Origin: Elusimicrobiales bacterium
Lineage (GTDB): Bacteria > Elusimicrobiota > Elusimicrobia > Elusimicrobiales > UBA9959
NCBI GenBank assembly: GCA_028713125.1
Contig: JAQTOU010000004.1
Coordinates: 62,001-126,000, forward strand
DNA: 64,000 bases
Direction of reading: 5' to 3'
Position 1 is the first letter of the stretch. Every line of letters begins with the position of its first letter. The translations under genes and the position numbers were made by a program. Positions 18,691-55,850 of the stretch are shown here, in pieces. A model generated the notes under the pieces. It saw nothing but the letters and a program-made list of their open reading frames with translations. It had not been told where the DNA came from and did no database searches.

Positions 18691-18719
18691 TGGACAACTT
18701 ACATGATATCCTTTAAAAT
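18691..18719 (+). promoter_or_regulatory. Sigma70-like promoter ahead of CaCA/otsA run
   Basis: TGGACA at 18691-18696, a 17-base spacer, then TAAAAT at 18714-18719: five of six consensus bases in each box. The expected transcript start (about 18726) falls just before the conserved leader element. Confidence 0.6.
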
Positions 18720-18727
18720 AGTTAAAA

Positions 18728-18800
18728 GGGTCCGGAGGCCGGCGCTCCGGAGGACAGGATGGTCGGGCCGCCATCTCCGGCAGGGTTGCCGGTATGGCGG
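18728..18800 (+). promoter_or_regulatory. Conserved structured leader RNA, copy A (candidate riboswitch or attenuator)
   Basis: GGG is followed by hairpin P1 (TCCGGA 18731-18736 with TCCGGA 18746-18751), then hairpin P2 (GATGG 18758-18762 and CCATC 18771-18775 closing the loop TCGGGCCG). A third hairpin, P3, pairs CCGCCAT 18768-18774 with ATGGCGG 18794-18800, with an inner CCGGCA/TGCCGG stem. P2 and P3 share bases and cannot form together. A matching element in the same position relative to its promoter lies on the minus strand at 29065-29001. In this copy P3 is followed by only a weak U-rich stretch (ATTTCAATTT). A nine-codon ORF (18794-18823) starts in P3; no ribosome site supports it. I do not recognise the element as a known riboswitch class. 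Confidence 0.6.
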
Positions 18801-18892
18801 ATTTCAATTTGCGGCCATCTTGATCCGGCGGCTTTAGTAAAAAAACAATTCTTCCTGGATAAATAAGAAGCCTGGGCCGCCCGCTTTTAATT

Positions 18893-19822
18893 ATGAGCGA
18901 TTATACTGCTTTAATTATCGGAGTCGCCTGTGCCGCTATCGGCGGCGAGTTCTTTGTAAGGGGTTCGGTGGGGCTCGCTTATTGTGTGCGTATCTCCCCG
19001 GCTATCGTGGGAGCGACCATTGCTGCCTTCGCAACTTCAAGCCCGGAATTGTCGGTCGCTATAAATTCCGCGCTTGCAGGCAACCCCGCTATAAGCCTCG
19101 GAGACGCTCTGGGAAGCAATGTGGTGAATGTCGCGTTCATCCTGGCCGTGGCCCTGGTGATCTCCGGGATACAAAGTCCGCGCGACAGTATAAAACGGGA
19201 TTTCCCGGCAGCGCTTCTGATCCCGGTCATCACCGGGGTGCTGTTCCTGGACGGAGAGCTCTCCCGGCTGGACGGCTTTCTGATGCTGGGGATGTTTTTC
19301 GCCTGGCTCGCCGCGGCGGTAAATGAAGCGAGGAAGCAGCGCCGCGCCGCTGAAAAGGTTCCATGCGAGAAGCGTGTCTGGCCGGCCGTTCTTTCTTGCG
19401 CGGCCGGGCTCGGTTTTCTTGCAGCGGCCGGGAAACTTATCGTGACCGGCGCCAGGGGCCTCGCCGTCGCTTTCGGCATAGATGAGTTCATTATCGGGGC
19501 GGTTATCGTGGCGGTGGGAACTTCCGTGCCGGAACTCGCGACAGTAGTCGTTTCCAAACTGCGCGGGTATGACGAAGTCGGCCTGGGAACGATACTGGGC
19601 AGCAATATCTTCAACGGAGTTTTTATTATCGCCGTCGCGGCTATTATCCACCCGATAGTTGCCCCCTGGCGCGAAGTCGCCGTCACTTTGGCTTTCGGAC
19701 TGGGGGCATTGTTATTGACCTATCCTTCGCGGGGGGGATTCATCGGAAGAGGGCGCGGCGTACTGCTGCTGGCCCTGTACGGGTTTTATCTCGCGGTCAT
19801 TTTCATGCGCCAGGCGGCCTGA
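18893..19822 (+). CDS. CaCA-family calcium/sodium antiporter (YrbG-like)
   Basis: 309 residues, about ten membrane segments arranged as two inverted halves. Each half has the alpha-repeat signature: ATSSPELSVAINSALAGNP with GDALGSNVVNVAFIL in the first, and GTSVPELATVVVSKLRG with LGTILGSNIFNGVFII in the second. These carry the acidic and polar residues that bind Ca2+/Na+ in the family. Direction and ion preference cannot be read from sequence; K+-dependent relatives exist. The start at 18893 has only a weak ribosome site. It is preceded by a promoter and the structured leader RNA, and followed after 51 bases by the trehalose synthesis genes, so it may share their transcript. Confidence 0.9.
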   Translation: MSDYTALIIGVACAAIGGEFFVRGSVGLAYCVRISPAIVGATIAAFATSSPELSVAINSALAGNPAISLGDALGSNVVNVAFILAVALVISGIQSPRDSIKRDFPAALLIPVITGVLFLDGELSRLDGFLMLGMFFAWLAAAVNEARKQRRAAEKVPCEKRVWPAVLSCAAGLGFLAAAGKLIVTGARGLAVAFGIDEFIIGAVIVAVGTSVPELATVVVSKLRGYDEVGLGTILGSNIFNGVFIIAVAAIIHPIVAPWREVAVTLAFGLGALLLTYPSRGGFIGRGRGVLLLALYGFYLAVIFMRQAA

Positions 19823-19873: not shown

Positions 19874-22129
19874 ATGCGCATAACGCTCAGGCTTATAGTT
19901 TCGCTTATCGCCGCCGTGGTCCTGGTGGCCATGGTGTCGGCTTATTTCAATGTCCGGCAGGAAAGGGAAAAGCTGTACAGCGAGACGCGCGGCCACATGG
20001 CCGTGCTTGCTGAAAGCTTCAAGGAAACGGTGCGCAGCAGCCTGGCCGGAAAAAACTATGCGGCCCTGCAGAAGCTTGCCGATAAGTTCCAGTACCAGAA
20101 ACAGATAGAGGGCGTGGCGATATATTCAGTGGAGGGCAGGCAATTGGCTACCTCTTCAGCCATAAGGGGCTTCCTGCTCCTTAACAAGGACAAAATTTCG
20201 GCGCTTGTCGCGGGCGGGGACAATACGGGCGAGCTGTACCGGAGCGGGGAAAAAGTAACGATGATCTATTCGCTTTCCTCGGCGACCGGCGACGGCGAAC
20301 CGGCCCGGATAGTGCTGTTCACCGACGTCTCCTACGTGGACTACGAACTGTTCCGGATCTGGAAGCGGACGCTGCTGCGCGTGCTCGCGCAGATGGTGCT
20401 TATCGCCGCCGTCACGCTCTTCGTGATACGCTGGCATATAGTCGACCCTGTAACGCAGTTGGCCGACTGGATGAAGAAGCTCCGTGTCGGGGAAGCGTCC
20501 GGGCACATGCCCCACCTGAAGGGGGATATCTTCGCGCCGATCGCGAAGGAGGCCACTACGCTGGCCACCAACCTGCAGGCGGCCAGGCGCGCCGCGCAGA
20601 ACGAGGCGCGGCTGCGTCAGAACGGGGAATCCCTTTGGACCCCCGAAAGGCTGAAGGAGCATATAAAGATAAAAATGGAGGGGCGACCGCTTTTCGTCGT
20701 GTCCAACCGCGAGCCTTACATGCATATCAAGGAAGGCAAGGATATAAAGACCATAGTTCCGGCGGGAGGCCTGGTAACCGCGCTCGACCCCATAATGAGG
20801 GCTGCCGGCGGGACCTGGGTGGCGCACGGCAGCGGCGAGGCGGACTTCGAGGTGACGGACGCGGATAACCGCATTAAAGTCCCGCCGGAGGAACCCGCCT
20901 ATACGTTGCGCCGCATCCCGCTCAGCAAAGAAGAGGAGGACGGCTACTATTACGGTTTTTCCAACGAGGGGATCTGGCCGCTCTGCCATATCGCGCATGT
21001 GCGCCCGACCTTCAGGAAAGAGGACTGGAAGTTGTATTACGACGTAAACAAAAAATTCGCCGAGACGGTGCTCGAAGAGATAGCGGACGTAAAAGAGCCC
21101 TGTATCCTCATCCAGGACTACCATTTCACGCTGCTGCCCAGCATGATAAAGTCGGTGCGGCCCGACGCGCGCGTTGCCGTTTTCTGGCATATCCCCTGGC
21201 CCAACCCGGAAACTTTCGGCATCTGTCCCTGGCAGAAGGAGCTGGTGATGGGTCTGCTCGGCGCCGACCTCATAGGTTTCCATACGCAGTTCTTCTGCAA
21301 TAACTTTCTCGACACTGTCGACCGCACGCTGGAATCCCGGATAAACTGGGAGCATTTCTCGGTGCAGAAAGAAGGCCATATCACCATGGTGAAGCCTTTC
21401 CCTATAAGCGTGGACTTCCAGCAGCCGGATAAAGAGGCGAAAGCTTTGGGGGAAAAGCCGGACGCCAAGGTCGTGCTGAAGGAAATGGGGCTTAAGGCCG
21501 ACTATATCGGCGTGGGCGTGGACCGGATCGACTATACCAAAGGCATGCTGGAGCGCGTGAAGGCGGTAGAGCGCTTCCTCGAAAAATATCCGGAGTACCA
21601 GGGAAAGTTCACGCTTATGCAGCTTGGGGCGCCCAGCCGAACGCATATTCCGCAATACCACCGGTTCCTGGCCGAGCTGCATGCCGAGGTGGACAGGATA
21701 AACTGGCGCTTCAAAGCTAAAGATTGGAAAGCCATAGTGTTCCTGGAGAAGCACCACGACCACAAGACGATAACCAAGTTCTACAAGATAGCCGATACCT
21801 GCCTGGTGACCTCCCTGCACGACGGCATGAACCTGGTGGCTAAAGAATTCGTCGCGGCCAGGGACGATAATTCGGGGGTGCTTATACTCAGCCGCTTCGC
21901 CGGCGCTTCGCGCGAAATGAAGGACGCGCTGATAGTGAACCCCTACGACATAGAGCAGATGGCCGACGCTATTTACTATTCGCTCACTATGCCTAAGACG
22001 GAAGTGATCGAGAGGATGACCCGGATGCGACAGGACCTGCATGAAAACAATATCTACAAATGGGCGGCCAACCTGACGGAAGAACTTATGAAGCTTCGCA
22101 TGGACGCTTTTAAGCCGACGGGCGTATAA
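19874..22129 (+). CDS. otsA: Membrane sensor-HAMP fused to trehalose-6-phosphate synthase (GT20)
   Basis: 751 residues; ATG after AAAGGGAG. Residues about 7-26 are a membrane helix, 27-160 an extracytoplasmic sensor-like domain ([18 protein letters not shown]), 163-183 a second helix, and 184-240 a HAMP-like linker beginning at the conserved [10 protein letters not shown]. From about 270 to the end is a GT20 domain that makes trehalose-6-phosphate from UDP/ADP-glucose and glucose-6-phosphate. Visible key motifs are [44 protein letters not shown] (D550-R551 onward) and [12 protein letters not shown], so catalysis should be intact. Ordinary OtsA is soluble and about 460-500 residues. The fusion suggests synthesis tethered to the inner membrane and tuned by an external signal. 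otsB follows one base later. Confidence 0.92.
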
Positions 22130-22130
22130 C

Positions 22131-22910
22131 ATGAGATCTTTCTGGAAAAACACCGGCGAAATCTCGGCCCGGCTCGCGGGCGCCCCGCGCCTGCTGGTTA
22201 CGCTTGATTTCGACGGGACCCTGTCCGCGCTCGCGAAGACGCCCGGGCAGGCCCGCCTGAGGCCGGAGCTTAAGGCCGCCCTGAAAGAGCTTGCGGCTGC
22301 GCCCGGGGTGTCAGTGTTCGTGCTCAGCGGCAGGGCGCTTGAAAGCGTTCGCGGGCTGGTGGGGCTCCGTAATCTCTATTACGGCGGAAACCACGGGATA
22401 GAAATAAAAGGCCCCGGCTTCTCCTGGCGCGACCCCGTGGCGGCTGAAGCCCGCGGCGTGATGGCGCAGCTGGCCGCCGGCCTGAAGAAAAAATTCCCTC
22501 CAAAGACCGGCGTAATGGTGGAGAATAAGGTGTTTTCGGCCAGCGTGCATTACCGCAATCTGAAAGCGGGCTTTAGGGCAGGTTTTTTTAAGCATATGAA
22601 AAACTTCATGAAAGAGCAAAGCGGAGGGCTCAGCTGGAGAAAGGGGCATAAAGTTTTTGAGCTGGTGGTCATTGGCGCCGCTAATAAAGGCAGCGCCGTA
22701 AACCGCCTGGCGGCAAAGTTGGGGCGCCCGTACTGCCTGGCCGCCGGAGACGACCTGACGGACGAGGATATGTTCAGAGCCCTGTCCCGCTCGGGCCTGA
22801 CAGTCAGGGTCGGCAGGAAAAACGCTTCCTGCGCCGCTTATTTTCTCAAGGACCAGCCGGAAGTTCTGAAATACCTGGATTTCATTTCCGCGCTCAGAAG
22901 GAAGAAATGA
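22131..22910 (+). CDS. otsB: Trehalose-6-phosphate phosphatase
   Basis: 259 residues, usual length for OtsB. HAD motif I is LDFDGTLS with Asp26 and Asp28; motif II lies in VFVLSGR; the late acidic motif is GDDLTDEDMF. GGNHGIEIKG and the cap-region MVENKVFSASVHYRN are typical of trehalose-phosphatases. It dephosphorylates the product of the preceding synthase to free trehalose. The start lies one base after the otsA stop, and its own stop overlaps the sensor kinase start by four bases, so the three are translationally coupled. Confidence 0.93.
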   Translation: MRSFWKNTGEISARLAGAPRLLVTLDFDGTLSALAKTPGQARLRPELKAALKELAAAPGVSVFVLSGRALESVRGLVGLRNLYYGGNHGIEIKGPGFSWRDPVAAEARGVMAQLAAGLKKKFPPKTGVMVENKVFSASVHYRNLKAGFRAGFFKHMKNFMKEQSGGLSWRKGHKVFELVVIGAANKGSAVNRLAAKLGRPYCLAAGDDLTDEDMFRALSRSGLTVRVGRKNASCAAYFLKDQPEVLKYLDFISALRRKK

Positions 22911-24295
22911 CCTTAAAAAATAAATTCGTAGTTATTACGGCCGGTTTCGCGGCTATTTTCGCCGCCCTTATGACCTTCGACAGGGTGCGGACCACGAGAA
23001 CGGAAATGCTGGGACGCGTCGAGGACAGGGCGAATTATATAGTTTCTTTTATAACCGATGTTTCAGCCGACCAGATGCAGCAGGCTAACCATGACGCCGG
23101 GCTCAAGCAGATATTGAAGGGCTTTGAGCATTTCTCCCAGATTTCCTACCTAAAGGTGTCGGACTCGGGAGGACGGGCGATATACCGGCTGAGCCGTCCC
23201 GGAATAAGCATAGACAGCAGGTCCGAAGACGCCGATATCCATAATGCCGGGGACGCCGTCTTCGACATAAGGCGTGATATGATGAAGGACGGGAAGAGCC
23301 TGGGGACCATACAGCTCGGAATGTCCCTGGAGGGGGTTCTGGAATCCCTTGAAATACTTATGTGGCGCGGCATAGCCGTGGGGATCATCTTCCTGCTCCT
23401 GATAACCGGTTCCGTCTGGCTGCTCGCCGTACGGCTTGGCAGGGAGCTCGAAGCGCTTCTTTCCCTGGCGGGGCAGATGAATTCCGAGGCCCTGCCTGCA
23501 GAACCGATTCTTGACCCCGGCACCGATACCGGCAAGATAGCTTTCGCCTTGCGGGACACGCATTCTCGCCTAAAGGAGGAGGAATCGCGCCGGAAGGAAG
23601 CGGAAACGCAAAAAGACGATTTCTTCGCGATGACGGTCCACGACCTGAAGCAGCCGCTCACCGCCCTTAAGGCGGCGATGGACCTGCTGTTTTCCGAGGA
23701 GGAGGCCAAGAATTTCAGCAAGGAGCAGATACGGAGCCTGGCGAATATAGCCGGAACTTCCCTGCGCATGCTTAATTCCATGGTAGTGGATGTGCTGAAC
23801 ATGGCTAAAATAAGAAGCCGGGATTACAGTCCCGAAAAGGACCGGGTGCCGCTCGCCGCGTTCATGCGGGAGTGCGCCGAGGAAAATTCCGCCTCGGTGA
23901 AAGCCGCGGGCAAGAAGTGGATTTTTTCCCTGCCCGAAGACATAGGGGAGACCTGGATCTTCGCCGACCACGACATGGTAAAGCGGGTAATCGGCAACCT
24001 GGTGCTTAACGCGATACAATATACCCCCGCCGGCGGGGCGATCAAGCTTGGCGTCAGGTTCTCCTCCGCGGATAAGGCCGCCATCTACGTCAGCGACGAG
24101 GGGGAGGGGATCCCCGACAGTTTCCGTGAAGAGATCTTCAAGAAATACAAGGGCATGGGAAAAAGCTCGAAGAACATAGGGCTGGGGCTCGCTTTCTGCC
24201 GGATGGTCGCGGAGTCCCATTCCGCCATGATGGACGTGCGGTCGGAGATGGGCAAGGGAACGGAGGTCAGCTTTGTGATCCCCGTTTCCCGCTGA
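22907..24295 (+). CDS. Membrane sensor histidine kinase in the otsAB operon
   Basis: 462 residues. A first membrane helix (about 7-24), a periplasmic sensor of about 130 residues (ISYLKVSDSGGRAIYRLS), and a second helix (GIAVGIIFLLLITGSVWLLA) lead to a linker and a complete kinase core. The H-box is VHDLKQPLT with His245; the N-box is NLVLNAIQYTP; G1 is DEGEGIPD and G2 is GLGLAFCRMV. All elements needed for autophosphorylation are visible. No response regulator lies next to it, so its partner is elsewhere. Its sensor layout resembles that of the OtsA fusion, so both may watch the same envelope condition, perhaps osmolarity; that is inference. Confidence 0.9.
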   Translation: MTLKNKFVVITAGFAAIFAALMTFDRVRTTRTEMLGRVEDRANYIVSFITDVSADQMQQANHDAGLKQILKGFEHFSQISYLKVSDSGGRAIYRLSRPGISIDSRSEDADIHNAGDAVFDIRRDMMKDGKSLGTIQLGMSLEGVLESLEILMWRGIAVGIIFLLLITGSVWLLAVRLGRELEALLSLAGQMNSEALPAEPILDPGTDTGKIAFALRDTHSRLKEEESRRKEAETQKDDFFAMTVHDLKQPLTALKAAMDLLFSEEEAKNFSKEQIRSLANIAGTSLRMLNSMVVDVLNMAKIRSRDYSPEKDRVPLAAFMRECAEENSASVKAAGKKWIFSLPEDIGETWIFADHDMVKRVIGNLVLNAIQYTPAGGAIKLGVRFSSADKAAIYVSDEGEGIPDSFREEIFKKYKGMGKSSKNIGLGLAFCRMVAESHSAMMDVRSEMGKGTEVSFVIPVSR

Positions 24296-24923: not shown

Positions 24924-25991
24924 CTAAATGAAAACGTGGACCTTCTCCGGGATAAGCCTGGCGTGGGCTTCGCGGCCTTCGGTCAGCCCTGCGTCGCCCG
25001 TAAGGGCCGAGACTTCCGTCCCGGCGAGGGAAAAGCTGAGCAGGATGTCGCGGCCCAGCGGCTCGGCCAGGTCTATGCGCACGGGGACCGAGCCCGGTAC
25101 GGGTTCGCGGGACACTTCTATATCCGAAGGCCGGATACCGATGCTCGCGGGCCCGGTCTTCAGCCCCGGCTTTTTGAGCGGGACCAGCCTGACCCCGCCT
25201 ATGCCCGCCGCCATCGCTCCAGCCTCTTCCGTCAATGTGCAGTCCATCAGGTTCATGGGCGGAAAGCCGATGAACTGTGCGACAAAACGGTTGGCGGGCC
25301 GCTCGTAAAGCCCCATCGGCGTGTCCAGCTGCTGCAGCTTCCCGTCCTTGAGCACTGCCACGCGGTCGCCGAGCGTCATGGCCTCTACCTGGTCGTGGGT
25401 GACATAGATTGAAGTTATCCCAAGCTCGCGCTGCAGCTTCTTCAGCTCCACGCGGGTGGCCAGGCGCAGCTGCGCGTCCAGGTTGGAGAGCGGCTCGTCG
25501 AAAAGAAGCACGTCGGGGCGCCTTACCACGGCGCGGGCTATGGCTACGCGCTGGCGCTCGCCGCCGGAGAGCTCGCCGGGCTTGGAGCCAAGCAGGGCCG
25601 TTATCCCCAGCATCGCGGCGGCTTTCTCCACCCTCTCCTTGATTTCCGGTTTCGGGACCTTGGCAATATTGAGCGGGAAAGCGATATTGCCGAAAACGGT
25701 CAGGTGGGGATAAAGCGCGTAGCTCTGGAACACCATCGCGACATTGCGCCCGCGCGGACCGGTGAACTTCCCGGGCCCGGCCATCAGCGTTCCTCCGAAA
25801 CTTATCTCGCCCGAGGACGGTTTCTCCAGCCCCGCCAGGAGGTTGAGCAGCGTTGATTTGCCGCAGCCGGAAGGGCCCAGCAGGACGAAGAATTCGCCCT
25901 CCTTTATTTCCAGGTCCACGCTGTCGAGCACCGTGAACTTGCCGCGCGCCGACGTAAAATCCTTCTTTAAACTTTTTAATGAGATATTCAT
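24924..25991 (-). CDS. Carbohydrate ABC importer ATPase, MalK/UgpC type
   Basis: 355 residues. Walker A GPSGCGKST (39-47), the Q-loop near MVFQSYALYPHLTV, signature LSGGERQRVAIARA, Walker B VLLFDEPLSNLD and switch His in YVTHDQVEAMTLGDRV are all intact. The C-terminal ~120 residues form the OB/TOBE regulatory domain typical of MalK (FIGFPPMNLMDC...GIRPSDIEV). It energises uptake through the two permeases encoded upstream. Last gene of a four-gene operon in order binding protein, permease, permease, ATPase. MalK-type ATPases sometimes serve several importers, and this one is next to its own. Confidence 0.92.
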   Translation of the reverse strand: MNISLKSLKKDFTSARGKFTVLDSVDLEIKEGEFFVLLGPSGCGKSTLLNLLAGLEKPSSGEISFGGTLMAGPGKFTGPRGRNVAMVFQSYALYPHLTVFGNIAFPLNIAKVPKPEIKERVEKAAAMLGITALLGSKPGELSGGERQRVAIARAVVRRPDVLLFDEPLSNLDAQLRLATRVELKKLQRELGITSIYVTHDQVEAMTLGDRVAVLKDGKLQQLDTPMGLYERPANRFVAQFIGFPPMNLMDCTLTEEAGAMAAGIGGVRLVPLKKPGLKTGPASIGIRPSDIEVSREPVPGSVPVRIDLAEPLGRDILLSFSLAGTEVSALTGDAGLTEGREAHARLIPEKVHVFI

Positions 25992-25998
25992 AGCTTCC

Positions 25999-26820
25999 TT
26001 AACCCTTTACCGCGCCCCGGGTGAGGCCCTGTATGATGTGCCGCTGGAAGACCGCGGTGAGCAGCATTATCGGCGCCGTGGTGATCGCCGACGCCGCCAT
26101 TATGTTCCCCCACGGGATCTCGCCGTGCAGGCCCTGGAACATCGCTATCCCCACGGGGATCGTCCTGGCGGAATAATCGGTGGTCAGTATCAGCGCGAAG
26201 ATAAATTCATTGAAAGCGAAGATGAAGGAAAGGAGCGCGGTGGAAAGCACGCCCGGCAGCGCCACGGGCAGGATCACCTTATAAAGCACCTGCGCCGGAG
26301 AGCAGCCGTCCACGATAGCTGCCCTGTCCAGCTCCCGCGGTATCTGGTCGAAATAGCTGACCAGTATCCACAGCGAAAGAGGCAGTATCCAGGCGACATA
26401 AGGCGCCACCAGCGCGGCGTAGGTATTGATCAGGCCCAGGTCCGACATCAGCTTGAAAAGATAGCCTATCAGGCTTACCTGCGGGAACATCGAGACCGCC
26501 AGCACGAAGAAAAGCACCACGGCTTTACCTTTCATCTCCAGCCGGGTTATGGCGTAGGCGGCCAGCGAGGCTATCAGCACTGTAATTATCGCCGAGAGCG
26601 CGGAAACTATCAGGCTATTGCGCAGATAGTCAAGGAAATGAAGCGAAGGAGTTCCAAGTACCGTCGCGTAATTGGCCGGCGTAAAACCGCCGGCGCCGAT
26701 CTGGTCGGGGCGCGCGCTCAGGCTTACGGCGAACATATAGAGGAAAGGGGTGAGGCAGAATACCGCCATGGCCAGCGCCCCGGCCCAGAGCAGGATCCTT
26801 TCGGTGGTCTCGCTCTTCAT
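25999..26820 (-). CDS. Carbohydrate ABC importer permease, MalG type
   Basis: 273 residues, six membrane segments. The EAA coupling loop reads RELDRAAIVDGCSPAQVLYKVILPVALPG, close to the MalG consensus. The N-terminus (ERILLWAGALAMAVFCLTPFLYMFAVSL) is typical of the second permease of CUT1 sugar importers. Its start overlaps the stop of the MalF-like gene by one base. With the lipoprotein binding protein it should import an oligosaccharide or polyol. Proximity to trehalose and maltodextrin enzymes suggests an alpha-glucoside, which is inference. Confidence 0.9.
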   Translation of the reverse strand: MKSETTERILLWAGALAMAVFCLTPFLYMFAVSLSARPDQIGAGGFTPANYATVLGTPSLHFLDYLRNSLIVSALSAIITVLIASLAAYAITRLEMKGKAVVLFFVLAVSMFPQVSLIGYLFKLMSDLGLINTYAALVAPYVAWILPLSLWILVSYFDQIPRELDRAAIVDGCSPAQVLYKVILPVALPGVLSTALLSFIFAFNEFIFALILTTDYSARTIPVGIAMFQGLHGEIPWGNIMAASAITTAPIMLLTAVFQRHIIQGLTRGAVKG

Positions 26821-27704
26821 CAGGCGGCCTCCCCGAAGCCGGCCAGCCTGACGTACAGCCAGGAAAGCCCGAAAGAAACCATGAACAGGAGCATCGACAC
26901 AGCCGAGCCGTAGCCGAAGTCCCCGCCGGCGAAATAATTGTAGGCGTAAAGCGAAACCGAGGTGGTGGAGCCGCCGGGGCCGCCGCCGGTCAGCACGTAG
27001 ATCACGTCGAAGATGCGCAGGGTGTCGATAGTCCGGAAGAGCAGCGCCACGGTCAGCACGGGCTTCAGCAGCGGCAGGGTGACCAGCCTGAAGACCTGGA
27101 ACGAAGTTGCCCTGTCTACGCGGGCCTGCGCTTTCAGGTCGGAAGGCACGGCCTGCAGGCCGGCCAGGACTATCAGCGCCACGAAAGGAGCGGTCTTCCA
27201 GACGTCGGCGGCCAGCAGGGCGATGAAAGAGCCGGAGGCCGTCCCGGTCCAGTTAACAGGCCCGTCGGCGAGACCGGAATGCACGGCTATAAAATTGGCC
27301 AGGCCGTAGCCGTAATTGTAGATCAGCTGCCAGATCCTCGCCGAGACAGCCGAGGGGATGGCCCAGGGGATCAGGACGCAAGCCCGCCACAGCCCGCGCA
27401 GCGGCAGCTCCTGGTCCAGAATTACGGCGAAGGCCGTGCCTATGAACAGTTCCAGCGGTACGGCTACGGCTATGAAAGTCAGCGTGAAACCGAAAGCCTG
27501 GCGGAAGCCAGGGTCCGAGAAAGCGTGCGTATAATTGGAGAGGAAGATGAATTTCTTCCCCATAAAAGTCACGTCGCTGAAGAAACTTGAGAAGAAAGTT
27601 CCCGCTATCGGGAATACGATGAAGGCGAAGACGAAAAGCAGCAGGGGCGCGATGAAAAAATAGGCCTCCCTGCCGCCCGTCACTACTTCGCCGCGCCCGG
27701 CCAT
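26820..27704 (-). CDS. Carbohydrate ABC importer permease, MalF type
   Basis: 294 residues, six membrane helices. An EAA-like loop is seen in PSDLKAQARVDRATSFQVFRLVTLP, with the downstream LYAYNYFAGGDFGYGSAVS motif common in CUT1 first permeases. It lacks the extra periplasmic loop of enteric MalF and is the usual length for the general family. One-base overlaps link it to both neighbours. Confidence 0.9.
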   Translation of the reverse strand: MAGRGEVVTGGREAYFFIAPLLLFVFAFIVFPIAGTFFSSFFSDVTFMGKKFIFLSNYTHAFSDPGFRQAFGFTLTFIAVAVPLELFIGTAFAVILDQELPLRGLWRACVLIPWAIPSAVSARIWQLIYNYGYGLANFIAVHSGLADGPVNWTGTASGSFIALLAADVWKTAPFVALIVLAGLQAVPSDLKAQARVDRATSFQVFRLVTLPLLKPVLTVALLFRTIDTLRIFDVIYVLTGGGPGGSTTSVSLYAYNYFAGGDFGYGSAVSMLLFMVSFGLSWLYVRLAGFGEAA

Positions 27705-28981
27705 CAGCGGTACCTCGCCGCGGCTTCGTTCATTTCCGACTCGGCCGCCTTGAGTGCGGCCCCAGGCTCCGAAGCGCCTGACAGCGCGGAATTCAGATGC
27801 CGCTGCAGTATGGACGAGACCTGGGTGTAATAGGGGATGTTAGGCCTCGGGTAGGCGTTGGCGAAGATCTTCTCCAGATGCGCGAAGTGGGGATAGGCCT
27901 TGAGCACTTCTTTGTCGCTGTAGACGTCCATGCGCCCCGGGTTCCAGCCCAGTTCGAGCGCCAGCTCCTTCTGCACGGCGGGGGAAGTTATATATTTAAC
28001 GAGCTCCCAGGCGCCCGCTTTATCGTCTGAGAACCTGGAGACCGCGATATGCCATCCGCCCAGCGTGGAGACGCTGGTCCCGCCGGGAAAGCGGGGCATG
28101 GGGGCTATGCCGACCTTCCCCTTTACGGGGGAATCCGCCTGCTGGTGCAGGCCCCAGGCATAGGGCCAATTCCGCTCGAAAGCGGCCTTGCCCTCCTGGA
28201 AGAAGGTCCTGACCTCCTCTTCCTTCATCTCCGTATAGGTATTAGGGGGGGAGATCCTGTTTTTAGCTATCGTGTCGCGCATGAAAGTAAGCGCGCGGAT
28301 ATTTTCAGGGGTGTCCAGTTTTACCACGCCGTCACTGAAAGCTATCGCTTTCTCTCCGGAGGAGGCGAACTCGAGGAAGTCGCAGACCAGCCCCTCGTAC
28401 TGCGCGCCCTGCCATACGAAACCAAAAAAGTCAGGGTTCGCTTTTTTTTCTCCGGCCTGTATCTTCAGAGAGACGGAGAGGAGCTCCGGCCAGGTAGCCG
28501 GCGGCGCCTTGAAACCGTATTTATTCAGCAGGTCGGTCCTGTAATAAAGCAGCCCGGCGTCCACGTAGGCGGGCAGGGCGGAAAGTTGTCCGTTGTAGCG
28601 GTCGGCGAAATCCACGACCTTCGGCCAGAACGGCTTAAGGTCGGTCCCGTCCTTGGCGGCGTAGGGAGCGAGGTCCTCCAGCCAGCCCGAGGCCGCGAAC
28701 TGCCCTATCCAGGCTATATCGGCCAGGAAAACGTCGGGGTTGGCTTTTTCCGATTTTAGCGGGACGAGCAGGCCCTGCCGGCGCTGGTCGGAGTCGGTGG
28801 GCTGGCGCAGGAGGGAAGCGGGGACGCCCTTTTCCTCGGAGAAGCGCTTGATGATCCTTTCCCAGACCTCGATCTCGTTGGGCGCGCCGCCGACGCTGAA
28901 AACCAGCTCGGCCGGCTTTTTAGAGCAGGCGGAAAACGCGGCCAGGGCCGCGGCAAGCAGGGGTAGGTAAATTTTTTTCAT
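27704..28981 (-). CDS. Sugar-binding lipoprotein of the ABC importer
   Basis: 425 residues from the ATG at 28981, which follows GGAGG; a TTG 12 bases upstream is less likely. The signal peptide ends in a lipobox, AAFSAC, with lipidated Cys19. The mature protein is a family 1 solute-binding protein: LVFSVGGAPNEIEVWERII at the N-terminus, a FLADIAWIGQFAASGWLEDL stretch, and the C-terminal region with GTSVSTLGGWHIAVS and AWELVKYITSPAVQKELA. It captures the substrate outside the inner membrane. First gene of the operon, directly below a promoter, a leader RNA and a terminator-like hairpin. Substrate not determinable; trehalose or maltodextrin are reasonable from context. Confidence 0.9.
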   Translation of the reverse strand: MKKIYLPLLAAALAAFSACSKKPAELVFSVGGAPNEIEVWERIIKRFSEEKGVPASLLRQPTDSDQRRQGLLVPLKSEKANPDVFLADIAWIGQFAASGWLEDLAPYAAKDGTDLKPFWPKVVDFADRYNGQLSALPAYVDAGLLYYRTDLLNKYGFKAPPATWPELLSVSLKIQAGEKKANPDFFGFVWQGAQYEGLVCDFLEFASSGEKAIAFSDGVVKLDTPENIRALTFMRDTIAKNRISPPNTYTEMKEEEVRTFFQEGKAAFERNWPYAWGLHQQADSPVKGKVGIAPMPRFPGGTSVSTLGGWHIAVSRFSDDKAGAWELVKYITSPAVQKELALELGWNPGRMDVYSDKEVLKAYPHFAHLEKIFANAYPRPNIPYYTQVSSILQRHLNSALSGASEPGAALKAAESEMNEAAARYR

Positions 28982-28991
28982 AGCTGCCTCC

Positions 28992-29025
28992 AAATAAAAA
29001 CGCCGTCAGCGATAGCATGACGGCG
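28992..29025 (-). terminator. Intrinsic terminator / attenuator in the leader of the sugar ABC operon
   Basis: An 8-bp perfect stem (29018-29025 with 29001-29008, nine-base loop) is followed on the minus strand by TTTTTATTT. It lies downstream of the promoter and upstream of the first gene's ribosome site, so it is placed for premature termination rather than ending a gene. Confidence 0.6.
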
Positions 29026-29065
29026 GCCCGACCATCAGAATTCCCTCCGGAAATATTCCGGACCC
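29001..29065 (-). promoter_or_regulatory. Conserved structured leader RNA, copy B, with terminator-like hairpin
   Basis: Read on the minus strand: GGG at 29065-29063, hairpin P1 (TCCGGA 29062-29057 with TCCGGA 29051-29046), then P2 (GATGG 29036-29032 and CCGTC 29023-29019 around the loop TCGGGCCG). P3 pairs CGCCGTCA with TGACGGCG (29025-29018 against 29008-29001) and is followed at once by TTTTTATTT, then the GGAGG ribosome site and the ATG at 28981. P3 uses the 3' strand of P2, so the two compete. Compared with copy A, P1 and P2 stems and the P2 loop are kept while P1 loop length differs (5 against 9), and one P2 pair changes from U-A to U-G. Confidence 0.62.
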
Positions 29066-29071
29066 ATTCTA

Positions 29072-29100
29072 ATTATACTCCGGCCGCCATAGTAATTCAA
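29072..29100 (-). promoter_or_regulatory. Sigma70-like promoter of the sugar ABC operon
   Basis: On the minus strand TTGAAT (29100-29095), 17 bases, then TATAAT (29077-29072). The predicted start, near 29065, coincides with the first base of the conserved leader. Confidence 0.65.
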
Positions 29101-29200: not shown

Positions 29201-31474
29201 ATGGGAAAAAAGTTCGACACCGAGGTGAAACTCAGCAGGGAAATGAGCCTGATGGACGTCACCCTTATCGGTGTGGGCGCTATGATCGGCGCGGGCATCT
29301 TTGTCCTGACAGGCATCGCGGCCGGGGTGGCCGGCCCCGGGCTTCTTCTTGCTTTCCTTCTGAACGGTTTCGTGGCTTTATTGACCGCTATGTCTTATGC
29401 CGAGCTCGGGTCCTGCTATCATGACGCCGGCGGCGGGTATCTCTGGGTTAAAGAGGGGCTTCCGAAGTGGAACGGCTTTCTCTCGGGGTGGATGAGCTGG
29501 TTCGCCCACGCGGTGGCCTGCAGCCTGTACGCGCTGGGCTTCGGCGCCTATTTCGAGCATCTGCTCAGGGCTTTCGGGGTGGAGATGCCGCACTGGGGCT
29601 TTCTTTCGCCGGATAAGATACAGGCCGGCACTGTAGCTCTTATCTTTGCCTACATTAATTTCAAGGGCGCCTCCGAAACCGGGAAGATAGGCAATCTGGT
29701 CACGATATCCAAGATCGCGATCCTCGGCGTTTTCGCGGCTTTCGGCCTGGAGATAATCCTTCACCAGGGAGGCTGGCTTACTTCCTTCACGCCGTTCCTG
29801 CCCAAAGGCTGGAGCGGGGTGGTCAAGGCGATGGGCCTGACTTTCATCGCTTTCCAGGGCTTCGAAGTTATCTCCCAGTGTTCAGAAGAGGTGAAAAACC
29901 CGCGCAAAAATATCCCCAAGGCTATTTTCCTGTCGCTCCTGATAGTTATTCCTATCTACCTTATCATCGCCTTCGTCGCCATGGGCGCGATACATCCCGC
30001 AGGGATGACTTCCTGGGAATACCTGGCGATGTACAAAGAAGTCGCCCTGGTGGAGATCTCGAAGACTTTCTTTTACGGCGGCGGGGTCATGCTTCTGTTC
30101 GGCGGCCTGATCTCGACGATCTCCGCCCTGAACGCCACGATCTACTCTTCCTCGCGGGTAGCTTTCGCAATGGGGCGGGACCGGAACTTCCCGACCTTCT
30201 TCAGCAATGTCCATCCGAAGAACTTTACGCCCCACTGGGCTATCCTCTTCTCGGTGGTTATAGTCGTGGTCATGGCGGTTTCCCTCCCGATCGAGGACGT
30301 CGCCAGCGCGGCCGACATCATGTTCCTGCTCCTGTTCCTGCAGGTCAATATCGCATTGATCTCTCTGCGTAAAAAGCGCCCCGACCTGGACCGGGGGTTT
30401 ACCGTGCCGCTTTTCCCATGGCTTACTAGCATAGGCATCGTCATGATCGTGTGCCTGGCTGCCTATATGATGACCTACAGCCCGATAGCCTGGATAATTA
30501 CTGTCGTCTGGGTCGTCCTTGGGCTGATCGCTTACAAGAGCTACGCCTCCAAAAGGGAGGTCGTCCATATTCAGAAGGTACAGGCGCTGGAACGGCTGGA
30601 GAAAAAGGAATACAAGATCCTGGTCTGCCTTTCCAAGGCCGAGCATATCAGGGGCTTGTCCAATGTCGCGATGGCTATAGCCAGGAAGAACAATGCGGAG
30701 ATAATTTTTCTGAATGTCATCGAAGTTAAAGAGGGGGTGCCCCTGAAGGCGGGCCTGGGCGATGTCTCCTCCATGCAGCCGCTCCTGAACGAGGCTGAAA
30801 ACTATGTGGAATCTTTCGGCATCGAAGCCCGCACCATCCTCGACGTCTCTTACCGCGTTTCGCAGGGAATCGTCGAAACCGCCGAGGAGGAAAGCTGTAA
30901 TTTTATAATTCTGGGCCGGCAAAAAAGACCAGGTTTCATGCACCGCCTGTTCTCCTCCGTGATCGACACCGTGATCCAGAAGTCGCCCTGCGAAGTGGCG
31001 GTCCTGCACGGGAACTGGCCGGAGAGAAAGATCGGCAATATCCTCATCCCCTATGATTCGAGCATCCACACCCGCCTGGCCGCGGAAATAGCCCCTGGCT
31101 TCATGGAATTCTTCAGCGCCGAAGCGCAGGTCGCTAAGATATTCGAGCCCGACGTTATCCCGGCAGAGAGGCAGAAGGCGATACATGAGATGCAGGAGAT
31201 GCTTAAAAGCACCGCGCTTAAAGCAAAACTGACCACGCTGGACGACAAAGATGTTCTGGAAAGCATGGTGGACCTTTCAAAAAAGGCCGACCTGATGATC
31301 ATGGGCGGCCGGACCGGAGATTTTCTGGAACTGTTCCTTGGTAAGTCGCTGGCGCAGGAGATAACTGAGGAGTCCTTCTGCCCGGTCCTATGGGTCAAGG
31401 AGTACCAGGAAGTGATTCCTTTCTGGTCCGCTTTGCTCACTAATTCCGCCGCAGAAAAAGGGGAGCTTTCATGA
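29201..31474 (+). CDS. APC-family permease fused to tandem universal-stress domains
   Basis: 757 residues. Residues about 20-440 form a twelve-helix amino acid/polyamine permease, with helix 1 motif IGVGAMIGAGIFVLTG typical of the APC fold. Two UspA-like domains follow, about 465-600 (YKILVCLSKAEHIRGLSNVAMAIA) and 610-745 (IGNILIPYDSSIHTRLAAEIA...KADLMIMGGRTGDFLELFLG). The cytoplasmic Usp pair may bind nucleotide and regulate transport. Substrate unknown. The ATG at 29201 has no clear ribosome site (ACAATTACAAA precedes it); a downstream ATG at 29243 is an alternative. Its stop overlaps the next gene by four bases. Confidence 0.88.
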   Translation: MGKKFDTEVKLSREMSLMDVTLIGVGAMIGAGIFVLTGIAAGVAGPGLLLAFLLNGFVALLTAMSYAELGSCYHDAGGGYLWVKEGLPKWNGFLSGWMSWFAHAVACSLYALGFGAYFEHLLRAFGVEMPHWGFLSPDKIQAGTVALIFAYINFKGASETGKIGNLVTISKIAILGVFAAFGLEIILHQGGWLTSFTPFLPKGWSGVVKAMGLTFIAFQGFEVISQCSEEVKNPRKNIPKAIFLSLLIVIPIYLIIAFVAMGAIHPAGMTSWEYLAMYKEVALVEISKTFFYGGGVMLLFGGLISTISALNATIYSSSRVAFAMGRDRNFPTFFSNVHPKNFTPHWAILFSVVIVVVMAVSLPIEDVASAADIMFLLLFLQVNIALISLRKKRPDLDRGFTVPLFPWLTSIGIVMIVCLAAYMMTYSPIAWIITVVWVVLGLIAYKSYASKREVVHIQKVQALERLEKKEYKILVCLSKAEHIRGLSNVAMAIARKNNAEIIFLNVIEVKEGVPLKAGLGDVSSMQPLLNEAENYVESFGIEARTILDVSYRVSQGIVETAEEESCNFIILGRQKRPGFMHRLFSSVIDTVIQKSPCEVAVLHGNWPERKIGNILIPYDSSIHTRLAAEIAPGFMEFFSAEAQVAKIFEPDVIPAERQKAIHEMQEMLKSTALKAKLTTLDDKDVLESMVDLSKKADLMIMGGRTGDFLELFLGKSLAQEITEESFCPVLWVKEYQEVIPFWSALLTNSAAEKGELS

Positions 31475-55460: not shown

Positions 55461-55850
55461 TTCAGACCGCGGATGGAGGGCCGCTCTTCCCGCAAGGGAG
55501 GGGAGGAACTTCCGAACTTCACAGGGCAGGGTGCCGGTTCAAACTTCGCAGCATAATATGTGCGGGGCATAGGCCGGGAGGCGGGGGCGAGATCCCCCGT
55601 TTACGGATAGCGCCACAGAAAATATACCGCCCCGCAAGGGGTAAGGGTGAAAAGGTGCGGTAAGAGCGCACCGCGTACGCAGAGATGCGTGCGGCAGGGC
55701 AAGCCCCTCCTGAAGCAAGGCCAAAATTGCGCTTGGACTGCCCGTCCGGCCCCCTCCGGGGGGCGGCGCAGAGTGGGCCGCAACAGATAAATGGTCCTCC
55801 AGGTCCCGCAAGGGGCTGGACAGAATTCGGGGTACAATCCGCGGTCTGAA
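55461..55850 (+). ncRNA. rnpB: RNase P RNA, bacterial class A
   Basis: The ends pair perfectly as helix P1: TTCAGACCGCGGA (55461-55473) with TCCGCGGTCTGAA (55838-55850). In between, in the right order, are the conserved blocks ACAGGGCAGGGTGCC, ACAGAAAATATACCGCC, GGTAAGGGTGAAAAGGTGCG with GGTAAGAGCGCACC, and ACAGAATTCGGGGTACAATC near the 3' end. About 390 nucleotides, as expected. Several GCAA tetraloops cap stems. The 5' conserved block reads GAGGAACTTCCGAACTTC, which differs from the usual GAGGAAAGTCCGGGC. This is the catalytic RNA that trims tRNA 5' leaders. Confidence 0.95.

Follow-up and report, generated by a model that had tools for sequence, protein, structure and literature searches.

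The window (the whole 64,000-nt stretch of Elusimicrobiales DNA analyzed here) carries two copies of a leader RNA on opposite strands (Table 1). Copy A would lie at the very 5' end of a CaCA-otsA-otsB-kinase transcript, and copy B would head the operon of a trehalose/maltose-type ABC importer. An earlier note, made from the letters alone, had described a sigma70-like promoter, P1, P2 and P3 ahead of the CaCA gene and a second copy of the element on the opposite strand, and all of these were found. The promoter of copy A ends 8 nt before the aptamer, which puts the predicted start of transcription at, or at most 2-3 nt from, the first aptamer base. The P2 loop of copy A is TCGGGCCG.

Table 1. 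Features of the leader RNAs and neighboring genes, with positions in the window.
Feature	Position	Strand	Details
Sigma70-like promoter of copy A	18691-18719	+	TGGACA-17-TAAAAT; 10/12 consensus matches
nhaA-I (RF03057) aptamer, copy A	18728-18776	+	42.8 bits (gathering score 37); Y5-R26 subtype (C18732-G18750)
Copy A P1	18732-18737/18745-18750	+	
Copy A P2	18757-18763/18770-18776	+	loop CGGGCC, 18764-18769
Copy A P3 hairpin	18768-18800	+	shares sequence with the 3' arm of P2
Copy A expression platform	18768-18810	+	hairpin CCGCCAT/ATGGCGG, inner helix CCGGCA/TGCCGG, then weak U-tract
CaCA calcium/sodium antiporter	18893-19822	+	first gene after copy A; PF01699 1.5e-47; TIGR00367 above cut-off
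OtsA-type trehalose-6-phosphate synthase	19874-22129	+	GT20 at 273-741, N-terminal membrane sensor module 1-270; PF00982 1.2e-116
OtsB trehalose-6-phosphate phosphatase	22131-22910	+	PF02358 2.2e-35; TIGR00685 above cut-off
Sensor histidine kinase	22907-24295	+	overlaps otsB; HisKA, HATPase_c
MalK/UgpC-type ATPase of importer	24924-25991	-	PF00005, TOBE/OB_MalK
Two MalF/MalG-like permease genes of importer	25999-27704	-	PF00528 in both
Trehalose/maltose-binding-type solute-binding protein	27704-28993	-	first gene after copy B; PF01547
Copy B intrinsic terminator	28992-29025	-	CGCCGTCA/TGACGGCG then TTTTTATTT; 3' arm of P2 doubles as its 5' arm
Copy B P3	29025-29001	-	followed by TTTTTATTT
nhaA-I (RF03057) aptamer, copy B	29018-29065	-	46.0 bits; Y5-R26 subtype
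Copy B promoter	ends at 29072	-	TATAAT
Amino-acid permease fused to universal-stress-protein domain	29201-31474	+	divergent from copy B, promoter region common to both
Bacterial RNase P class A RNA	55465-55850	+	204 bits; elsewhere in the window

Both copies precede genes assigned by homology to trehalose functions, synthesis for copy A and probable uptake for copy B, in line with the trehalose link that had been noticed earlier. OtsA scores 440 bits with TIGR02400 versus 300 bits with the glucosylglycerol-phosphate synthase model, both below the equivalog cut-offs; its solved relatives are trehalose-6-phosphate synthases, and a glucosylglycerol-phosphate synthase in its place was rejected on these scores. 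A histidine kinase also stands 3' of otsB in five relatives and represents a possible second, protein-based osmotic input. Uptake is assigned to the importer because the best solved relative of its solute-binding protein is 1eu8, a Thermococcus-type trehalose/maltose-binding protein (E 1.3e-155). The start of this protein is probably the ATG at 28981, with GGAGG upstream, rather than the TTG at 28993 of the mechanical ORF list.

The N-terminal module of OtsA (19874-20690) is predicted to consist of a transmembrane helix, an extracytoplasmic cache/PAS-like domain, a second transmembrane helix and a HAMP-like coiled coil, followed by the GT20 domain. Its AlphaFold model (pLDDT 78) matches the WalK sensor kinase (9a5d, E 3.2e-8; 4ywz, 1.2e-5), and homologues of this region give weak Pfam matches to sCache, dCache and HAMP. 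Most Elusimicrobiota OtsA proteins considered here have 735-770 amino acids and seem to possess the same module; no paper describing a membrane-sensor trehalose synthase was found.

Class membership and conservation in Elusimicrobiota

When the whole window was compared with 4227 Rfam families, copies A and B matched the covariance model of nhaA-I (RF03057) over its full length and far above chance (E = 3.8e-5 and 6.2e-6, respectively), and their membership in this class is secure. Both copies hold the conserved GGGU, AGG and UCGGGCC around P1 and P2, and the first P1 pair is C-G in each. The earlier note had connected the pattern with no known riboswitch class, which was mistaken: the function of nhaA-I has been shown experimentally (PMC9646797), and a new class was rejected since both copies exceed the RF03057 cut-off. 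The Na+-I riboswitch (RF03071) was likewise rejected as the identity of the element, its covariance model matching neither copy region (cmscan, E up to 1); none was found above cut-off in 336 Elusimicrobiota genomes. Copy A matched no other Rfam family at E up to 1, and near copy B there was, besides RF03057, a single chance match to a snoRNA. The folding energy of the bare aptamers is uninformative (z about 0) and would not have revealed the RNA. The window's own genome holds no nhaA-I copies beyond A and B.

A search of the phylum and a comparison with Rfam, both proposed in the earlier note, gave 80 matches to RF03057 in 67 of 341 Elusimicrobiota genomes (covariance-model scan), with covarying stems. 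The conserved GGGU, AGG and UCGGGCC are kept across the 80 members. At each of the first four P1 pairs, 78-79 of the 79 distinct RNAs keep standard pairing while the bases change (C-G to U-A or G-C to A-U, for example), although choosing the P1 register by best pairing biases these counts mildly; P2 pairs are likewise standard with exchanges, and the first P1 pair is Y-R in all 79. RNAalifold, applied to a MAFFT alignment of 31 RNAs, recovered P1 and P2 independently, with double changes in 8 of 11 pairs. The compensatory changes bear out the earlier impression of a fold kept while bases drift, and the P2 pair described as U-A in one copy and U-G in the other is real (covariance-model pair 39-52).

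These data also bear on the suggestion that TCCGGA, which is palindromic and directly follows the start site, is a DNA operator bound by a repressor or activator. In relatives the corresponding P1 sequence is TCTAGA, CCAAGG/CCTTGG, CTGGGA or others, with loop lengths changing and pairs compensated across the 80 phylum copies, and the most conserved part of the element is the asymmetric P2 loop. We consider an operator extremely improbable and rejected it on the covariation and the covariance-model match. Moreover, a -10-like hexamer (at least 5 of 6 matches) lies 3-10 nt upstream of GGGU at 35 of the 80 loci, versus 8% in base-shuffled upstream sequence; because of this enrichment, transcription in the phylum members probably starts at the first aptamer bases.

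Terminators and downstream genes

As had been proposed from the letters, P2 and P3 are mutually exclusive, with P3 overlapping the 3' arm of P2. The minimum free energy (MFE) fold of 18757-18815 in copy A contains the P3 hairpin and not P2; for copy B, region 28990-29043 has a folding z of -2.3, and its MFE structure is again the terminator rather than P2. The terminator of copy B is a textbook intrinsic terminator. The U-tract 3' of P3 in copy A is imperfect (ATTTCAATTT), which counts against an antitermination reading at this copy. Because close relatives carry better U-tracts at this position (ATTTTCATTT or ATTTTTATTT) and an inner helix that is changed yet paired, the hairpin of copy A can be read, from this comparison, as a homologous but weaker terminator. 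A fixed heuristic places a terminator overlapping P2 in 60 of the 80 phylum members.

Based on tblastn with the window proteins, otsA lies within 600 nt downstream at 36 of the 80 phylum loci and within 3 kb at 22 more (58/80). At 5 further loci the first gene encodes a protein related to the solute-binding protein of copy B, bringing the total with otsA or a trehalose/maltose-type importer to 63/80. In the window's genus, 21 genomes have both the riboswitch and a GT20 (otsA-type) gene, and the remaining 11 have neither; across the phylum, GT20 is present in 60 of 67 riboswitch genomes versus 50 of 269 others. One further genome, outside this second (GT20) sample, has otsA downstream of its riboswitch. 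The first genes after the Elusimicrobiota RNAs of the Y5 type (n = 78; see below) encode GT20/OtsA (35), DUF1646 (12), Na_H_Exchanger (5), Na_Ca_ex (5) and sugar-binding proteins (5), with NhaA at 0 of 78; the DUF1646, Na_H_Exchanger and Na_Ca_ex genes are among the first genes that stand ahead of otsA. In both Elusimicrobiota and Omnitrophota, the first gene after a Y5 RNA repeatedly encodes an SPFH/Band-7 membrane protein (seven loci). In the literature searched, no publication treating riboswitches together with trehalose in this phylum was found.

Two aptamer subtypes

For a wider comparison, 225 members were assembled, comprising the 80 from Elusimicrobiota, at least 120 from a genome-wide pattern scan (whose pattern fixes part of P2) and 25 from Desulfobacterota; a few records occur in two samples, and the deduplicated set holds 216 (among the matches listed). 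The 225 listed members split at the first P1 pair into G5-C26 and Y5-R26. All Pseudomonas, Rhizobiales and Burkholderiales members among the matches listed are G5-C26; Y5-R26 includes all Elusimicrobiota and, among the matches listed, all Omnitrophota and almost all Desulfobacterota. By the heuristic, 110 of 148 Y5 versus 3 of 68 G5 RNAs have a terminator (all groups, among the matches listed; Fisher p 3.5e-24, ignoring phylogeny), where shuffled downstream sequence leads one to expect 15-26% (Y5) and 6% (G5).

The first genes divide in a similar manner. NhaA (PF06965) follows 31 of 63 G5 RNAs and PF07399 antiporters 7 more, while Y5 RNAs from outside Elusimicrobiota precede pentapeptide proteins, MscS channels, Band-7 proteins and GT20 (all among the matches listed). 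When first genes were clustered (again among the matches listed), the NhaA group contained 31 G5 RNAs and one apparent Y5 RNA, which on re-reading gives a better G5 aptamer; the GT20-type group contained 43 Y5 RNAs and one G5 RNA, the latter before a trehalose phosphatase. Phylogeny partly confounds the way in which subtype tracks genes and terminators, and a Verrucomicrobiota sample, with nhaA-I in 9 of 241 genomes, is too small to show whether the split holds inside a single phylum. Tandem and triple nhaA-I RNAs, each with its own terminator, occur at several Desulfobacterota loci, many of them before small pentapeptide-repeat proteins of uncertain role.

We tentatively suggest, with somewhat less than even confidence, that nhaA-I comprises two functional classes that differ in their first P1 pair. 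G5-C26 RNAs would sense Li+, precede NhaA genes and lack a terminator; Y5-R26 RNAs would sense Na+, carry a terminator and precede genes for osmolytes and Na+ transport. As a hypothesis, the Y5-R26 pair may determine ion specificity. Alternatively, Y5 may serve the terminator-type platform, since in the copy B fold GGUCCGG pairs with UCGGGCC once the terminator has formed. If the two-class reading is true, Na+ sensing by the nhaA-I fold would be neither rare nor confined to Deltaproteobacteria; it would be common in Elusimicrobiota, Omnitrophota and others, and would be a main switch there for trehalose-based salt protection.

Switching, ligand and known systems

Our preferred reading, to which we give a probability of about 70%, is that copies A and B are cis-acting Y5-R26 nhaA-I riboswitches, most likely sensing Na+, that activate trehalose and Na+-exchange operons by antitermination. 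When no ion is bound, P2 would give up its 3' arm to downstream pairing in the P3 hairpin, and transcription would end before the first gene. With a monovalent alkali cation bound, P1 and P2 with its CGGGCC loop would be held together, blocking P3 and allowing polymerase to read into the operon. The ligand would most likely be Na+, with Na+-II-like behavior, and less likely Li+. High internal Na+ would then elicit Na+-coupled exchange together with accumulation of trehalose, a compatible solute, through both synthesis and uptake. Ion binding and switch-on by antitermination are taken here from the literature on the class, and for copies A and B themselves we infer Na+ binding and the switching. 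Antitermination control of the trehalose genes is likely, and the arrangement suggests that the element turns on salt protection as sodium rises.

An ion, one of the signals considered in the earlier note, agrees with the class. White et al. (2022) established nhaA-I RNAs as Li+ riboswitches (Li+-I) that activate genes, usually nhaA, with a Li+ Kd of about 30 mM for a Pseudomonas RNA, and found that rare terminator-bearing variants, named Na+-II and reported in Deltaproteobacteria only, respond to Na+; they left open Li+ versus Na+ for occasional trehalose-linked members (PMC9646797). The experimentally tested Li+-I RNAs are Proteobacterial, and the only terminator-bearing variant tested responds to Na+ (PMC9646797). 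Na+ is favored for the window copies because their platform is that of Na+-II, because Na+-coupled antiporters and osmolyte genes share one operon, and because NhaA, the hallmark of Li+-I, is absent after the phylum Y5 RNAs. Two further arguments are the standard shared-ligand argument, DUF1646 being a target in common with the Na+-I class and the gene behind its old name (PMC9337991), and the retention of a Na+ response by the C54U mutant of the Na+-II RNA (PMC9646797).

Taken alone, having U where residue 54 is presumed to lie points instead to Li+ or mixed specificity. That Li+ is the physiological ligand, both copies being true Li+-I riboswitches that answer lithium toxicity with export and trehalose synthesis, seems unlikely to us: the presumed specificity position has U in both copies, and White et al. 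consider an effect of Li+ on trehalose synthesis possible (PMC9646797), but NhaA follows none of the 78 phylum Y5 RNAs, the Proteobacterial groups listed above are G5-C26, unlike the window copies, and Na+ is the better fit to terminator platforms and to downstream osmolyte, MscS and DUF1646 genes. A broad alkali sensor answering both Na+ and Li+ is, in our estimate, quite unlikely. Being of the terminator type with a U at the presumed position, the window copies resemble natural versions of the C54U mutant, which responded to Li+, Na+ and NH4+ (PMC9646797), but further bases differ from the Desulfobulbus RNA; since Na+ alone is normally abundant in cells, the biological outcome would in any case equal that of Na+ sensing.

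The element is a genuine riboswitch of a known, ordinary class in an informative new setting. The association of nhaA-I with trehalose, occasional in earlier work, is the rule in Elusimicrobiota, and Na+-sensing copies would plausibly connect intracellular Na+ directly with the making of osmolytes in a phylum rich in uncultured members. As the phylum supplies dozens of natural RNAs that differ by one base pair in P1, discrimination of Na+ from Li+ by RNA becomes directly testable.

The window copies match the covariance model of Li+-I (RF03057, PMC9646797) above its cut-off and have its GGGU, its AGG linker, P1, P2 with UCGGGCC loop and, presumably, its switch-on logic; they differ in the first P1 pair (C-G, versus G-C in Proteobacterial NhaA-linked members), in carrying a terminator where Li+-I presumably relies on RBS control, and in preceding trehalose genes rather than nhaA. 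With Na+-I (DUF1646 motif, RF03071, PMC9337991) they have in common a similar layout of two stems, genes for Na+ and osmotic stress, terminator platforms and the DUF1646 target, whereas the conserved bases differ. Na+-II of Desulfobulbus propionicus (PMC9646797) belongs to the same family, likewise has a terminator overlapping P2 and activates by preventing termination. The intrinsic terminator of Na+-II has its counterpart in copy B and, as a homologous hairpin with a weak U-tract, in copy A. Na+-II, however, has been reported only from Deltaproteobacteria, where it precedes genes of unknown function, unlike the copies in Elusimicrobiota before trehalose genes, and the tested RNA has C at residue 54 where both window copies have U at model position 42, the two positions being presumed equivalent.
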